Part shown: positions 43,798 through 49,285 of the stretch, in pieces
Numbering within the stretch: the first letter of the stretch is position 1
Layout: each line of letters opens with the position of its first letter
Assembly: GCA_027484575.1 (NCBI GenBank)
Contig: JAIXSQ010000015.1
Location: 124,001-188,000 of the forward strand
Source of the DNA: Comamonadaceae bacterium
GTDB taxonomy: Bacteria; Pseudomonadota; Gammaproteobacteria; Burkholderiales; Burkholderiaceae_C
Length of the DNA: 64,000 nucleotides
Reading direction: 5' to 3'
Translations under genes and position numbers: made by a program
Notes under the pieces: model-generated
Told to the model about the DNA's origin: nothing
Databases searched by the model: none
Seen by the model: only the letters and a program-made list of their open reading frames with translations

Positions 43798-45243
43798 TCA
43801 GGGCGGCGCGGCGAGCGCCGCCGCTTGGGGCACCGGCCCGCGCGACGCCGCCTGGCCCGGCAGCACCACCCCCGGCAGCACCACGCTGAACGTGCTGCCC
43901 TGCTGCGGGCCGTCGCTGTGGACGCTGATGCGGCCCCCGTGCAGTTCCACCAGCCCCCGCGTGAGGGCCAGCCCGATCCCCAGGCCGCCCTGGGAGCGGT
44001 CCGAGGTCGGCGCGACCTGCTCGAAGGGCTCGAAGATGCGGCGCTGTGCCTCGGGGGTCAGCCCGATGCCGCTGTCGCACACGCGGATGTGCAGGTCACC
44101 GCCGTCCAGGCTGGCGTGCAGCGCCACCTCGCCGCAGGGGTCGGTGTAGCGGGCCGCGTTGTTCAGCAGGTTGGTCACCGCCTGCGTGATCCGCACCAGG
44201 TCCACGTCGACCTGCACGCCGGCCGGCGGGCGCGTCACCGTCAGGCGGTGCTGCCGCGGCTCGAGCGCGATCCGGCTGACCTCCAGCGCGGTGTCCAGCA
44301 CCTCGTCGAGGGCGACGGGCCGGCGGTCGAGCCGCAGCTTGCCTTGGGTGATGCGCGCCACGTCCAGCAGGTCGTCCAGCAGCACCCGCATGTGGCCCAC
44401 CTGGCGGCGCACCAGGTCGGCGGCCCAGCGCACCTTGGCCGGGTCGCCGGCCTGGCGCGAGAGGATCTCCGAGGCGTTGCCGATCGGCGCCAGCGGGTTG
44501 CGCAGCTCGTGCGCGAGCGTGGCGATGAACGCGTCCTTCTTGCGGTCCGCGTCCTGCAGCGCTTCGCTCAGTTGCGCCAGCCGTTCCGCGGCCTCGGTCC
44601 TGGAGCGTGCGTGCTGGCGCAGCGCGACGAAGTACAGGCCCACGAACAGGATGGACAGCAGGCCCGAGCCGATGCCGGTCCACAGCGAGACCTGGTAGGC
44701 CCGCTCCGAGCTGCGGCGCCGCTGCGCCAGCAGGCCGCGCTCGTGCTCGGCCAGCGCGTTGACCCGGTCGTCCAGCCGCTCCAGCAGCGCGGGACCGCCG
44801 GCCACCAGGAACAGCTGCACGCTGCGCTCCAGGCCCCCGGCACGCAGGGCGTCGATGGAGGCCTCGCGCAAGCGCGCGACCTCCGCCAGGTCGGCACGCA
44901 ACGTGGGCAGGGCGGCCTGGTGGCGCGGGTTGTCCCCGGTCAGTGCCGCGAACCTGTCCAGTTGCGCCCGCGACCGGTCCGCGCGCAACCGGTAGGCCGC
45001 CAGGTCCTCGCCCCGGCCGGACAGCACGTGGCCGCGCAGGGCGGCTCCGCTGGCCGCCAGCTCGCTCCTGAAGGCCTCCAGCGTGGTCAGCACCTCCTGG
45101 GTGTGCGAGACCCACTCCGCATCGTCGTGCTGCTGCTCGGTGGTCACGAAATTGAGCACCGACGCCAGCAGCAGCAGGGCCAGCAACGCCGTGCCGGCGA
45201 GCAGCCAACGGTCGGGCTTCAGGGGCGAGCGGCGCAAGCGCAT
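43798..45243 (-). CDS. membrane sensor histidine kinase with CHASE3-like domain
   Basis: 481 aa. Membrane helix 1 (residues about 13-33), a helical extracytoplasmic CHASE3-like domain (to about 185), helix 2 (about 187-207), a coiled linker, HisKA with the phosphoacceptor His245 (TLAHELRNPLAPIG), N-box LLNNAARY, and G-boxes VCDSGIG and GGLGIGLALT. No receiver domain. Last gene of the KaiC-like operon, 52 nt after the preceding stop. Ligand and response regulator are unknown; no receiver gene is in the operon. Confidence 0.92.
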   Translation of the reverse strand: MRLRRSPLKPDRWLLAGTALLALLLLASVLNFVTTEQQHDDAEWVSHTQEVLTTLEAFRSELAASGAALRGHVLSGRGEDLAAYRLRADRSRAQLDRFAALTGDNPRHQAALPTLRADLAEVARLREASIDALRAGGLERSVQLFLVAGGPALLERLDDRVNALAEHERGLLAQRRRSSERAYQVSLWTGIGSGLLSILFVGLYFVALRQHARSRTEAAERLAQLSEALQDADRKKDAFIATLAHELRNPLAPIGNASEILSRQAGDPAKVRWAADLVRRQVGHMRVLLDDLLDVARITQGKLRLDRRPVALDEVLDTALEVSRIALEPRQHRLTVTRPPAGVQVDVDLVRITQAVTNLLNNAARYTDPCGEVALHASLDGGDLHIRVCDSGIGLTPEAQRRIFEPFEQVAPTSDRSQGGLGIGLALTRGLVELHGGRISVHSDGPQQGSTFSVVLPGVVLPGQAASRGPVPQAAALAAPP

Positions 45244-45295
45244 GGCGGCGGGCAGTGTAGCCAGCGCGCCCGGCGGGCAGGAAGGTGGCCGGCCG

Positions 45296-46777
45296 TCAAT
45301 GGCGGGTGATGCGCAGCGGCAGGGTGACGCTGAAGCAGCTGCCGCGGCCCGGCCCGGCGCTGCTGGCGACGACCCGGCCGTCGTGCGCGGCGACCAGGTC
45401 GTGCACCAGCGCCAGCCCGATGCCCAGGCCGGACGGATCGAAGCTGGTGGCGCGCCGCTCCTGCACGTAGCGGACGAACACGTGCGGCAGGGCCTCCGGC
45501 GCGATGCCGATGCCATCGTCGGAGACCGACACCGCCACCTCGTCGGCGGACAGCTGGACGGCCAGCGCCACGTGGCCGCCCGGCTGCGTGTACTTGGCCG
45601 CGTTGTCCAGCAGGTTGCCGAACACCTGGGTCAGCCGCACGCGGTCCCCGTGCACCGGGATCTCCCCCTCGGGCAGCGACACCGACAGGTGCTGCGCGCG
45701 GGCTGCCATGGCCGGCGCGGCCGCCTCGCAGCAGTCGGCCAGCACCTCCCGCAGGTCCAGCCTCTGCACGTCCAGCCGCAGCTTGCCGGTGTGGAAGCGG
45801 GTCACGTCCAGCAGGTCCGACACCAGCCGTCCCAGGTGGGCGACCTGCCGGTCGATGATGCGCTGGACCATGCGCATCACCAGCCCGCTGGCCTTGGCGC
45901 GGCCCAGCAGCGCCGCCGCATTGCTCAGCGGCCCCAGGGGCCCGCGCAGCTCGTGCGCGACCACGCCCATGAACGCCGACTGCTCGCGCTGCACCAGCTG
46001 GGCGGCCGCCAGCAGCTCCTGGGCCCGCAGGGCCGCCAGCACCAGCTGCTGGTTGACCTCCACCTTCACGTCGGGCGAGACCGCGGCCACGTCGTCGGCG
46101 CGGCTGCCGCCTTGCTGCTGGGCCTCGTGCTGGCGCAGCTCCAGGCTGCGGGCATTGGTGCCCGCCTCGCCCTGGAACACGTAGCTGCCCAGGCCCTCGC
46201 GCCGCGCGTGGTACATGGCGGCGGTGGCGCGGTCCACCAGGGCGTCGGCATCGTCCCCGTCATCGGGATAGACGCTGGCGCCGATGGTCACCTTCAGGCG
46301 GATCTCGCGACCGTCGAGATGCAGCGGCAGCGCCATCGCAGCGAGCACGGAATCGGCCACGGCCATCGCATCGGCGGGCTGCGACAGCGCGGTCAGCTGC
46401 ACCAGGAATTCGTGGTCGCCCAGGCGGCTGACCAGGTCCGAATCGCGCACGGCCACCGCCAGCCGCCGGGCCGCCAGCCCGAGCACCTGCTCGCCGAAGG
46501 CATGGCCCATCGCGTCGTTGAGCTCCTCGATGCTGCCCAGGCTGACCACCAGCAGCCCCAGGCGGGAGCCGCTGCGCCGAGCGACCGCCAGGCCGTGCGC
46601 CAGCCGGTGGAAGGGCAGGCCCGCGTCGTCGGGCGCGGCGGCCGCCTCGACCCGCAGCATGCGGTGCAGGTCGCGTAGCGCGGCCGCGGCCTGCGCCGCT
46701 TCTTCCTGCGCGCGGAGGACCGCCAGCACCAGATGCTCGTTGGCTTCCAGCAGGTCCGCCGTGCGCGCGGGGTTCAT
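45296..46777 (-). CDS. soluble histidine kinase with degenerate GGDEF domain
   Basis: 493 aa, no membrane segment. Residues about 50-205 are a GGDEF-like domain whose signature reads RLGDHEFLV (118-126; GDHEF instead of GGDEF), so diguanylate cyclase activity is unlikely. HisKA follows with His275 (VVAHELRGPLGPLS), N-box NLLDNAAKY (388-396) and G-box SDDGIGIAP (419-427). The phrase N-x-LVLA-x-LRAQE occurs twice, before the GGDEF (from Asn13) and before HisKA (from Asn242). Start overlaps the KaiC-like stop (ATGA). Confidence 0.9.
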   Translation of the reverse strand: MNPARTADLLEANEHLVLAVLRAQEEAAQAAAALRDLHRMLRVEAAAAPDDAGLPFHRLAHGLAVARRSGSRLGLLVVSLGSIEELNDAMGHAFGEQVLGLAARRLAVAVRDSDLVSRLGDHEFLVQLTALSQPADAMAVADSVLAAMALPLHLDGREIRLKVTIGASVYPDDGDDADALVDRATAAMYHARREGLGSYVFQGEAGTNARSLELRQHEAQQQGGSRADDVAAVSPDVKVEVNQQLVLAALRAQELLAAAQLVQREQSAFMGVVAHELRGPLGPLSNAAALLGRAKASGLVMRMVQRIIDRQVAHLGRLVSDLLDVTRFHTGKLRLDVQRLDLREVLADCCEAAAPAMAARAQHLSVSLPEGEIPVHGDRVRLTQVFGNLLDNAAKYTQPGGHVALAVQLSADEVAVSVSDDGIGIAPEALPHVFVRYVQERRATSFDPSGLGIGLALVHDLVAAHDGRVVASSAGPGRGSCFSVTLPLRITRH

Positions 46778-48225
46778 GGACCGTCCCTGCCCGTGATGCG
46801 GTGGGTGGGGCGCCCGCCCAGCAGGCCTTCGCGGTCCTGCAGGGTCGGTCCGACCTGGATGCCGTCGGCGTCGATGGTGTACAGGCGCAGGGCGTCCGAG
46901 TGGGCGCTGTCGCGCACCTTGACCACGGCCATCACGCGCTGCAGGCGGCTGTCCACCTCGATGTAGCGCTGCACGATGATCGCGTCGGTCAGGAACGCCG
47001 TGCCGTAGGGACTGAAGCGCAGGTCGGTGTAGCGGTCCTCCAGCTCCGAGGTCATCAGCGTGCTGACGCCCTCGTGGCCCAGCGCGCTGACCAGCCGCAG
47101 CATGGACTCGCGGAAGTCCTGCCGGAAGGTGGGCGTCAGCGAGAGCTCGAAGGCCGACAGCGAGTCGATCACCACGCGGGTCGCGCCCAGCCGCCGGATC
47201 TCGCCGAGCAGCAGCAGCACGATCTCGTCGATGGACAGGTCGACGGCCCGGCTGTCCACCAGGGCCACGTCGCCGGAGGCGATCAGCTGCGACAGCACGA
47301 CCTGGGCCGAGCGGTTGGCCCGCTGCTCGAACAGGGCGATCACGCCCTTCTCGCCCTGCCGCGCGCCCTCGGCCAGGAACGAGGCCGCCAGCACGCTCTT
47401 GCCCGACCCGGACGGCCCCGCCACCAGCAGCGAGTAGCCGCGCGGCAGGCCGCCGCCCAGCATCGCGTCGAGCGCCGGGTTGCCGACGCTGGCCCGCCCA
47501 GGCGGCAGCGCGGGCCCATTGCGATGCGGCAGCGCCGCGCTGGCAGGGGGGAAGACCGTGACGCCCGACGGGGAGATGCGGTAGGTGTGCCGGCCCGCCA
47601 GGCTCGCGCGCCCGCGCATCTTGGTGACCTCCAGCTTGCGCACCATGGTGTTGCGCTCGACGGACTGGTCCAGCCGGATGATGCCGTCGCACACCGTGAA
47701 CACCGGGTTCGCCTCGGTGTCGGCGGCGTACTCGCCGATCAGGAAGGTCGTGGCCTGCCAGCTGGTCATCAGCGAGCCGAGCTGCTGCATGAACATCTGC
47801 AGGTCGCTGGTGTCGGCACGGCTGGCGACCACCGAGCGGAAGGAATCCACGAAGACGAAGGCCGGCTGGTGCACCTGCACCTCGGCGACGATGCGCTCGA
47901 GCACCTTGCCCAGGTCGCCGGCCAGCGCGTCGTCGCCCAGGTTGACGTAGCGCACGCAGCGCTCGAGGCGGTCGAAGTCGAAGAAGGCGAACTGCTGCTG
48001 GTAGCGCAGCATCTTCAGCGGCGGCTCGCCCAGCACGGTGAGGTACAGCGCCGGCCGCTCGGGCGTGGCCATGGCGAACATCATCTGGTGCGCCAGCGTG
48101 GTCTTGCCGCAGCCGGGCAGCCCGGCGATCAGGTTGAACGAGAACTCGGGCAGGCCGCCGCCCAGGATGGTGTCCAGGCCGGGGATGCCCGTCGGCAGGC
48201 AGTGGATGGTGACCTTGTCAGTCAT
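46774..48225 (-). CDS. double-domain KaiC-like ATPase
   Basis: 483 aa, two RecA-like KaiC domains. Domain 1: Walker A GLPGCGKTT (35-43), Walker B FVFVDS (123-128). Domain 2: Walker A GPSGSGKS (270-277), Walker B VVIDS (351-355). The paired Glu of KaiC read GE (66-67) and EQ (300-301). Aligning the TDAII phrase (413-417) with cyanobacterial KaiC puts Ala410-Phe411 at the phosphorylated Ser431-Thr432, so the classic phosphocycle is probably absent. It starts 8 nt inside the preceding gene. No kaiA or kaiB nearby. Confidence 0.92.
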   Translation of the reverse strand: MTDKVTIHCLPTGIPGLDTILGGGLPEFSFNLIAGLPGCGKTTLAHQMMFAMATPERPALYLTVLGEPPLKMLRYQQQFAFFDFDRLERCVRYVNLGDDALAGDLGKVLERIVAEVQVHQPAFVFVDSFRSVVASRADTSDLQMFMQQLGSLMTSWQATTFLIGEYAADTEANPVFTVCDGIIRLDQSVERNTMVRKLEVTKMRGRASLAGRHTYRISPSGVTVFPPASAALPHRNGPALPPGRASVGNPALDAMLGGGLPRGYSLLVAGPSGSGKSVLAASFLAEGARQGEKGVIALFEQRANRSAQVVLSQLIASGDVALVDSRAVDLSIDEIVLLLLGEIRRLGATRVVIDSLSAFELSLTPTFRQDFRESMLRLVSALGHEGVSTLMTSELEDRYTDLRFSPYGTAFLTDAIIVQRYIEVDSRLQRVMAVVKVRDSAHSDALRLYTIDADGIQVGPTLQDREGLLGGRPTHRITGRDGP

Positions 48226-48619
48226 GGCTGGGATCCTGGGCGTCGGCGCCGGAAGGGGGAGGCGTGGAGCCGGGGGGCAGCAGGCGTTCGACCAGCGAGA
48301 TGCCGATCAGGCTGGCCAGCAGGTCGCGGAACAGGAGGAAGGCGTGGGCGCTGGCCGCCTCGGCCTCGTCCGGCGAACGCCGGGCCAGCTGGTTGCGCAG
48401 GTGGTCCAGGTCCATGCCGTCGGCCTCGGGCGGCACCTCCAGCCATGCATGCGCGCCGCGGGCCTGGAACAGGGTGCGCCGGTACAGCGCCGCCACGCCG
48501 TGGACGCCGACGATGGGCGACAGCGCCGCCAGGATGGCGCGCCACCGCACCACGGCGTGGTTCGCGATGCGCAGGGAATCGTCGTCGCCGGGGGCGCGGA
48601 TTCCGATCGGGACAGCCAT
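48218..48619 (-). CDS. small helical protein, first gene of the KaiC-like operon
   Basis: 133 aa, mostly alpha-helical, with a Pro/Ser-rich tail, no signal peptide or membrane helix. Phrases such as HAVVRWRAILAALSPIVGVHGVAAL do not match a family I can name (this one is split after ALSPI when read as helices). It overlaps the KaiC-like gene by 8 nt, so its product is made in step with it and could be an adaptor or partner. Its ATG overlaps the TGA of a 7-codon ORF (48641-48618). Confidence 0.7.
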   Translation of the reverse strand: MAVPIGIRAPGDDDSLRIANHAVVRWRAILAALSPIVGVHGVAALYRRTLFQARGAHAWLEVPPEADGMDLDHLRNQLARRSPDEAEAASAHAFLLFRDLLASLIGISLVERLLPPGSTPPPSGADAQDPSHD

Positions 48620-48964: not shown

Positions 48965-49285
48965 ATGGGAACCAAACTTTACGTGGGCAACCTGCCCTAT
49001 TCCTACAGCGACAGCGACATGGAGCGCTCGTTCAGCGCCTACGGCGCGGTCAACAGCGCCAAGATCATCATGGACCGTGACAGCGGCCGCTCGAAGGGCT
49101 TCGGCTTCGTCGAGATGTCGTCGCAGGCCGAGGCCACCGCGGCCATCGCCGGCCTGCACGGCCAGGACCTGGGCGGCCGCGACATGGTCGTCAACGAAGC
49201 CAAGCCGATGGAGTCGCGTCCCCCGCGCTCCGGCGGCGGTGGTGGCTACGGTGGCGGCGGCTACGGCGGCGGCAACCGCTACTGA
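48965..49285 (+). CDS. RRM-type RNA-binding protein with Gly-rich tail
   Basis: 106 aa. One RNA-recognition motif: RNP2 LYVGNLPY at the N-terminus and RNP1 KGFGFVEM near residue 45, then a Gly/Tyr-rich tail (GGGGGYGGGGYGGGNRY). Such small RRM proteins in Burkholderiales and cyanobacteria are often cold-induced. Start set by CTGGAG 6 nt upstream; an upstream in-frame ATG (48899) lacks a site. Preceded by a long structured leader and followed by a strong terminator. Confidence 0.95.
   Translation: MGTKLYVGNLPYSYSDSDMERSFSAYGAVNSAKIIMDRDSGRSKGFGFVEMSSQAEATAAIAGLHGQDLGGRDMVVNEAKPMESRPPRSGGGGGYGGGGYGGGNRY

Follow-up and report, generated by a model that had tools for sequence, protein, structure and literature searches.

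Introduction

KaiC homologues have been reported in Proteobacteria, and the accessible text of PMC5520375 describes the function and interactions of Kai proteins outside cyanobacteria as mainly unclear. Operons that join KaiC to a kinase have already been published, and PMC3164672, in its accessible text, sorts KaiC genes by their genomic context. The third context group in that text (the 'black group', which includes Rta_35460) mostly lacks both phosphosites and lies near signaling genes, and timing is judged unlikely for members like Rta_35460. Here we analyze a locus of this kind in a 64,000-nucleotide stretch of DNA from a Comamonadaceae bacterium (contig JAIXSQ010000015.1, positions 124,001 to 188,000; hereafter the window), in which the genes for a small helical protein (P0001), a double-domain KaiC-like ATPase (P0002), and an output protein carrying a short helical motif that we call the tag (P0003) form a unit that recurs across genomes. 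Window proteins are numbered P0001 to P0004, and the handles L and G denote a locus and a family or genus genome, respectively.

The P0002 locus has fewer than two phosphosites and an adjoining signaling gene, the features by which the third group is delimited, and it shares with that group, as described in the accessible text, the loss of the phosphosites and the proximity to kinase, GGDEF/EAL, or receiver genes. By lineage and phosphosite loss, with the sequences uncompared, P0002 probably corresponds to Rta_35460. The locus differs in that the arrangement of the 'black group' is called less conserved in PMC3164672, whose accessible text on the group mentions neither the small gene nor the tag. 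The literature that we searched, with subscription papers and figure supplements outside its scope, holds no description of the small family or of the tag. Pairs of KaiC with an Nt_HK kinase (Rta_04330/Rta_04340 type) resemble the locus in that a double KaiC is followed by a histidine kinase (HK) with no KaiB, and differ in the N-terminal domain by which the published kinase is coupled (RtaNt). The source genome has a second double KaiC (L087, 6235-7725 of that locus, on contig C17), which adjoins a histidine kinase, is 30% identical to P0002, and comes without a tag; our guess is that it is of the Rta_04330/Rta_04340 type. Relative to the S. elongatus KaiC clock, P0002 has the same two RecA-like domains and Walker motifs over ∼470 aligned residues, whereas its phosphosites are gone, the CI E77 and CII E319 positions are changed, there is no KaiB match, and its bit score lies far below the circ_KaiC cut-off.

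A Conserved Three-Gene Module

A scan of 84,980 species genomes for the ATPase led to 95 confirmed relatives, and the best 80 of these make up the locus set used throughout. They come mostly from beta- and gammaproteobacteria, together with two Desulfo- and two Gemmatimonad metagenome-assembled genomes (MAGs, with binning unchecked); the carriers are bacteria of soil and water. A P0001 homologue lies immediately upstream of the ATPase gene in 77 of the 80 loci, and a kinase and/or GGDEF gene comes next after the ATPase gene in 71. In 49 of the 77 adjoining pairs the small gene's stop codon and the start of the ATPase match share 4 nucleotides (nt), with the remaining pairs ranging from a 17-nt overlap to a 68-nt gap. 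The three loci without an adjoining small gene (L065, L070, and L079) belong to genomes in which whole-genome searching found none elsewhere; most of our whole-genome searches scored part of the first-look candidates in each genome, so misses are possible. All three also lack an adjoining tagged gene. In a second set, built from separate whole-genome searches, the small gene stands beside the ATPase gene in 46 of 46 loci; this set includes the window locus and is not independent of the first, because the same records recur in both (G488 is L007, G668 is L008/L009, and G588 is L019). When 398 genomes of the phylum were searched with the small gene, 4 homologues were found, all 4 beside this ATPase. 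The gene order is thus widespread and not confined to the source strain, and together with the conserved adjacency of the 133-residue protein it supports the view of the initial annotation that the locus is an incompletely described signaling module in which the ATPase gene has a small partner linked to it. In the window, the three genes are as follows (ORF, open reading frame; AF2, AlphaFold2):

48218..48619, minus strand: small all-helical protein P0001 (133 aa), proposed adaptor (ORF; homologue search; AF2)
46774..48225, minus strand: double-domain KaiC-like ATPase P0002 (483 aa) without clock phosphosites (two PF06745 domains; alignment)
45296..46777, minus strand: soluble output protein P0003 (493 aa), with tag helix, degenerate GGDEF, tag helix, and HisKA-HATPase (Pfam; tag profile; AF2)

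The initial annotation had placed these genes in a four-gene operon with coupled junctions. The minus strand does carry all four, at 48619-43798, and the first three are joined by two overlaps (8 nt for P0001/P0002 and 4 nt for P0002/P0003) and make up the conserved unit, whereas a 52-nt gap precedes the gene for P0004, a local neighbor that makes "four-gene" too wide. The promoter scan returned no sigma-70-like site (0.2 expected), and the two terminator-like sites found (0.6 expected) both lie within coding sequence.

The ATPase and Its Small Partner

As first annotated, P0002 is a double-domain KaiC-like ATPase (two PF06745 stretches, 222.8 bits against a Pfam cut-off of 26.6). The source genome shows no KaiB (0 PF07689 matches at E ≤ 0.001). 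Its positions were set by alignment to solved KaiC chains over the same ∼470 residues; the numbers and roles of S431, T432, E77, E78, E318, and E319 are those of the clock KaiC. The Walker A lysines and Walker B aspartates (K41, D127, K276, and D354) are invariant in the window protein and in 80/80 relatives, and E67 and E300, at the E78 and E318 positions, are invariant in the 80 relatives, while Gly stands at the E77 position in all 80 and Gln at the E319 position in 73. From these residues, P0002 retains ATP binding and, probably, hydrolysis. The S431/T432 positions correspond to A410/F411 in P0002 and are Ala and Phe in 80/80 relatives. Because both positions are occupied in this way throughout, neither clock site can be phosphorylated in the P0002 family, and P0002 is no clock KaiC. 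The initial annotation had left timing open as a role; in its phosphorylation-based form this fails at both positions, and a timer by autophosphorylation was rejected as a candidate on the same ground. P0002 also stays below the NCBIfam equivalog cut-offs (TIGR02655, 125.4 bits against 546.25; NF006799, 220.7 against 408). Beyond the last conserved stretch, where a clock KaiC has its conserved KaiA-binding tail, 0-26 residues follow, with one read-through of 243. Over 45 loci the ATPase is the slowest evolving of the three proteins (mean pairwise identity 73%; third protein, 46%; small protein, 40%), and the divergence of the three is matched (r 0.66-0.73 against a permutation maximum of 0.20), a pattern that indicates shared descent and not binding. 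The defense library gave only partial ATPase-type or kinase-type matches to the module, the best being mad8 (1.6e-11) for the ATPase.

In agreement with its first description as a small helical protein, AF2 predicts P0001 to be all-helical, with five helices (predicted local distance difference test (pLDDT) 82.9, predicted template modeling score (pTM) 0.71). P0001 belongs to no Pfam family (best match sub-threshold, E 0.36) and matches nothing in NCBIfam, and the 75 small proteins of alignment A1, scanned singly, show no consistent family in either database. There are 79 small sequences in all, counting the window protein and 78 homologues, and A1 contains 75 of them; L015, L025, L067, and L075 were omitted. 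We rejected KaiB as an identity for P0001, which is predicted to be all-helical and not thioredoxin-like, with no KaiB match among the 75 A1 members (Pfam, E ≤ 0.1); KaiA gave no match in the same 75 at the same threshold. KaiA, KaiB, and RsbU-like proteins were also rejected by fold (best Foldseek E 1.2); that KaiA or RsbU chains are not among the best 50 matches of either fold search decides nothing. The best VIA-align Z for P0001 is 6.3, to a spidroin domain, followed by 6.0 to Salmonella Sen1395, and for the predicted model both values are within the range given by a common helical-bundle arrangement. A sequence profile search of the PDB returned nothing under E 1.1. In Rhodanobacter sp. 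A1T4 a second small gene (L064, 10320-10754) follows the third gene and is itself followed by opposite-strand genes.

Output Proteins and Their Shared Tag

The gene after the ATPase gene encodes a GGDEF-containing histidine kinase in 48 of the 80 loci, a histidine kinase in 16, a GGDEF protein in 5, and a GGDEF-EAL protein in 2 (the EAL domain of the L083 protein was assigned by Pfam). Such a gene is missing in 9 loci, four of which are cut by a contig end (L013, L016, L059, and L084); L065, L070, and L079 have room and still show no kinase/GGDEF gene next to the ATPase gene. P0003 itself carries Pfam GGDEF, HisKA, and HATPase_c domains and so matches its initial description as a soluble kinase with a degenerate GGDEF domain. 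Its signature reads LGDHEF instead of xGGDEF, outside the diguanylate-cyclase signature, and Ser stands where most relatives carry the first Asp of the LDLD stretch; the phosphoacceptor H275 and the N, G1, and G2 box residues are present, as in an orthodox histidine kinase. Among 45 aligned GGDEF-kinases (alignment A5, the window protein and 44 of the 48, with L018, L052, L055, and L078 omitted), 39 keep a GGDEF or SGDEF signature, and the degenerate form is common to the window protein, its closest relatives L007-L009 (from Caenimonas soli or Ramlibacter ginsenosidimutans), and L066 and L081 (6/45). Eight of the 45 lack the phosphoacceptor His, all with an intact signature. Strict mutual exclusion of a dead kinase and a dead cyclase was considered and rejected: none of the 45 is without both, but chance would give this with p 0.29. 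The His-less kinases (L022, L038, L042, L043, L051, L056, L060, and L063) keep the ATP-binding boxes in seven of the eight cases, L022 ending before them.

The feature that these output proteins share is a repeated motif of the form ∼LxEANExLVLAALxAQ, which stands in one or two copies per protein. With a regular expression it is detected, whatever the output domain, in 68 of the 74 third-gene ORFs that reach the minimum length of 139 aa; 6 of the 80 loci fell short of this and were dropped. The tag is kept across GGDEF-HK, HK, HK-receiver, GGDEF, and GGDEF-EAL outputs. Elsewhere in 1,545,539 six-frame residues it matches 5 ORFs. Four of these also match the kinase core and are no more than ∼5 kb away from the ATPase gene: in L049 the third gene is split and the match is in its second half, in L040 and L075 the ORFs are upstream kinases, and in L038 the ORF lies downstream. 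The fifth (L072) overlaps an ORF that matches the kinase core. A profile built from 76 tag regions matches, in the source genome, only the two copies in P0003, although 74 places in that genome match P0003:

46706..46744, minus strand: tag copy 1 in P0003 (aa 12-24), ANEHLVLAVLRAQ (tag regular expression and profile)
46019..46057, minus strand: tag copy 2 in P0003 (aa 241-253), VNQQLVLAALRAQ, at the start of the helix leading into HisKA (regular expression, profile, AF2)

In the AF2 model of P0003 (mean pLDDT 80.2, with 10-residue means of 57-69 around the second tag), the tags are predicted to lie in helices 3-47 and 235-293, the second of which is continuous with the HisKA helix. Being constant across differing output domains, the tag points to a docking or signal-passing element that the outputs would share.

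Co-occurrence and Pairs without This ATPase

We searched 250 family genomes separately for the ATPase, the small gene, and the tag, with the same handles where listed. The ATPase is patchy, occurring at E ≤ 1e-120 in 25 of the 250 family genomes and in 19 of 59 genus genomes. The small gene occurs in 27/250 family genomes at E ≤ 1e-5 (30/250 at E ≤ 0.01) and the tag in 29/250 at E ≤ 1e-3 (43/250 at E ≤ 0.05). At the stricter threshold, the tag is found in 24 of the 25 genomes with this ATPase compared with 5 of the 225 without, and at the looser one in 24/25 compared with 19/225. Fisher's test gives p ∼2e-27 for tag and ATPase; the co-occurrence p-values (1e-27 to 1e-32) ignore kinship and overstate the strength of the association.

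At the stricter threshold, five genomes carry the tag but not this ATPase: G435, G629, G581, G491, and G579. In G435 and G629 a small homologue (E ∼1e-35 in each) directly precedes a tagged gene, encoding a GGDEF protein in the former and a GGDEF-EAL protein in the latter, and G581 has the same pairing with a weak small match (E 3.6e-5 in one search, 0.006 in another). Other double KaiCs, 25-31% identical to P0002, are present in G435, G629, and G579 (25-27% in the first two), and the one in G435 shares a contig with the small-tag pair, ∼15 kb from it. In G581 the PF06745 matches are all partial (45 bits at best), and the 14 kb around its pair contain no P0002 relative. Because small-tag pairs occur without this ATPase, the distribution suggests that the output protein is a further, or even the main, partner of the small protein.

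A Possible Switch and Its Alternatives

The gene order and its conservation, the loss of the phosphosites, the tag, the co-occurrence, and the small-tag pairs without the ATPase are observed, and the proposal that we favor joins them in a three-part, phosphorylation-independent KaiC-type switch with the small protein as adaptor between the ATPase ring and the tagged outputs; we regard its chances as evenly balanced. The KaiC-like protein would form an ATP-binding ring, which we infer from the family, with nucleotide state as the variable. The small helical protein would bind the tag helices of the output protein and link them to the ring, whose state would alter the coiled coil beside HisKA and/or GGDEF and thereby set kinase or cyclase output. 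Given the degenerate GGDEF signature of P0003, the output in the source genome would probably be histidine phosphorylation by this protein. The direction of control, the input, and the target are likewise parts of the proposal that we infer. Small-tag binding with the ring as controller is favored because small-tag pairs exist without the ATPase and because small gene and tag are jointly absent in three of three loci. A complex between the small protein and the ATPase, which the initial annotation drew from the coupling of their genes, would be plausible as well. Taken as a whole, the module suggests an ATP-driven signaling switch rather than a timer. A wider version, to which we give somewhat less than an even chance, is a phosphorylation-independent KaiC switch family in which a dedicated helical adaptor, not described before, would recruit any tagged output enzyme (histidine kinase, diguanylate cyclase, GGDEF-EAL protein, or hybrid kinase) to an ATP-driven ring, the adaptor-tag half also occurring ring-free.

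Several observations weigh against the adaptor proposal. Six of the 74 third-gene ORFs have no tag match, namely the GGDEF-kinases of L027 and L055, the ORF of L069, which is cut by a contig end, and those of L065, L070, and L079, which have no kinase/GGDEF domain. L024 and L034 have the small and ATPase genes and room but no adjoining third gene, G207 likewise has both of these genes and gives no match to the tag, and no small gene was found in two genomes that bear the tag, G491 and G579; the frame of the G491 tagged kinase looks broken. The tag profile does not match the HWE kinase of a plasmid locus described below (L228, 0.4 bits), whose N-terminal helix is tag-like by eye only. The profile was itself derived from third genes of the module, and some of these came from genomes in the set on which it was later run. 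The tag could also be no more than a coiled-coil linker. For P0001, the fold searches yielded no informative relative and no convincing solved structure.

The closest contender is that the small protein regulates only the ATPase, as a stand-in for KaiA/KaiB, and that the tag is the ATPase's own docking site on the output. In its favor, the small and ATPase genes almost always adjoin, typically with an overlap, and the source genome has no KaiB match; G435 and G629, in which the small gene is paired with a tagged output without this ATPase, are hard to fit, and we consider it unlikely, if still worth serious attention. It is more doubtful that these are co-transferred signaling genes without a shared mechanism, the tag being a generic signaling helix. 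The patchy distribution described above and the existence of plasmid copies would suit co-transfer, as would the finding that a search of the 80 loci and 5 further stretches gave no match to the window's glmS, RRM, and lrp proteins. Co-transfer does not account for a fixed and often overlapping order across beta- and gammaproteobacteria and two Desulfo- MAGs, or for a tag that goes with the module while the remaining P0003-like genes of the source genome are without it.

A reduced timer or hourglass, working by KaiC autophosphorylation with kinase output, draws on the histidine kinase that adjoins the KaiC-like ATPase and on the hourglass proposed for Rta_04330, the other KaiC of Ramlibacter tataouinensis, in the accessible text of the 2011 paper (PMC3164672). 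The Ala and Phe at both phosphosite positions and the lack of a KaiB match make it very improbable here; a timer driven by ATPase rate alone is conceivable. The view of the initial annotation, that all four genes with their two different kinases are a single system, is scarcely tenable. The fourth gene lies on the same strand across the 52-nt gap, and it does encode a CHASE3-type membrane kinase as annotated (Pfam CHASE3, HisKA, and HATPase_c). However, a search of the 58 other genomes of the genus, with 23-27 candidates scored in each, yielded no P0004 homologue at E ≤ 1e-90, and a CHASE3-region query had no match near the ATPase gene in the 80 loci, some of which are short, and on these two results P0004 was ruled out as a module member. 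With the whole of P0004 as query, the matches listed cover the kinase half, one in L074 (31%) reaching back to residue 121.

43798..45243, minus strand: CHASE3 membrane histidine kinase P0004 (481 aa), a neighbor judged to lie outside the module (Pfam)

Neighboring Genes and Variant Loci

Upstream of the small gene, the window holds a divergent gene (48965-49285, plus strand) for a small glycine-rich protein that is RRM-type RNA-binding by eye (no family search). Three Aquabacterium loci (L040, L072, and L075) carry a tag-bearing ORF, a PAS-HisKA kinase in L040, and a receiver gene upstream of the module, with homologues of an RsbR-, RsbS-, and RsbT/SpoIIE-like set, stressosome-like, downstream. 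A plasmid of Paracoccus liaowanqingii (L228, NZ_CP040765.1) has a diverged, alphaproteobacterial form of the module, in which a small homologue (31.6 bits), an ATPase with 47% identity, the HWE kinase, and a receiver lie between insertion sequence (IS) elements. Two Caballeronia plasmids, pSBC2-6 (L227) and pSBC2-3 (L229), hold copies with the small and ATPase genes. In pSBC2-6 a two-tag gene annotated as a diguanylate cyclase follows the ATPase gene, and in pSBC2-3 the ATPase region has no listed gene and matches in two pieces.

Conclusions

Most non-cyanobacterial KaiC proteins are without known partners or a known job. The fixed small partner and the recognizable tag described here provide concrete candidate partners for a KaiC lineage that is unable to run a phosphorylation clock. 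With them, it becomes possible to test whether KaiC rings can act as ATP-reading switches in two-component and cyclic di-GMP signaling.

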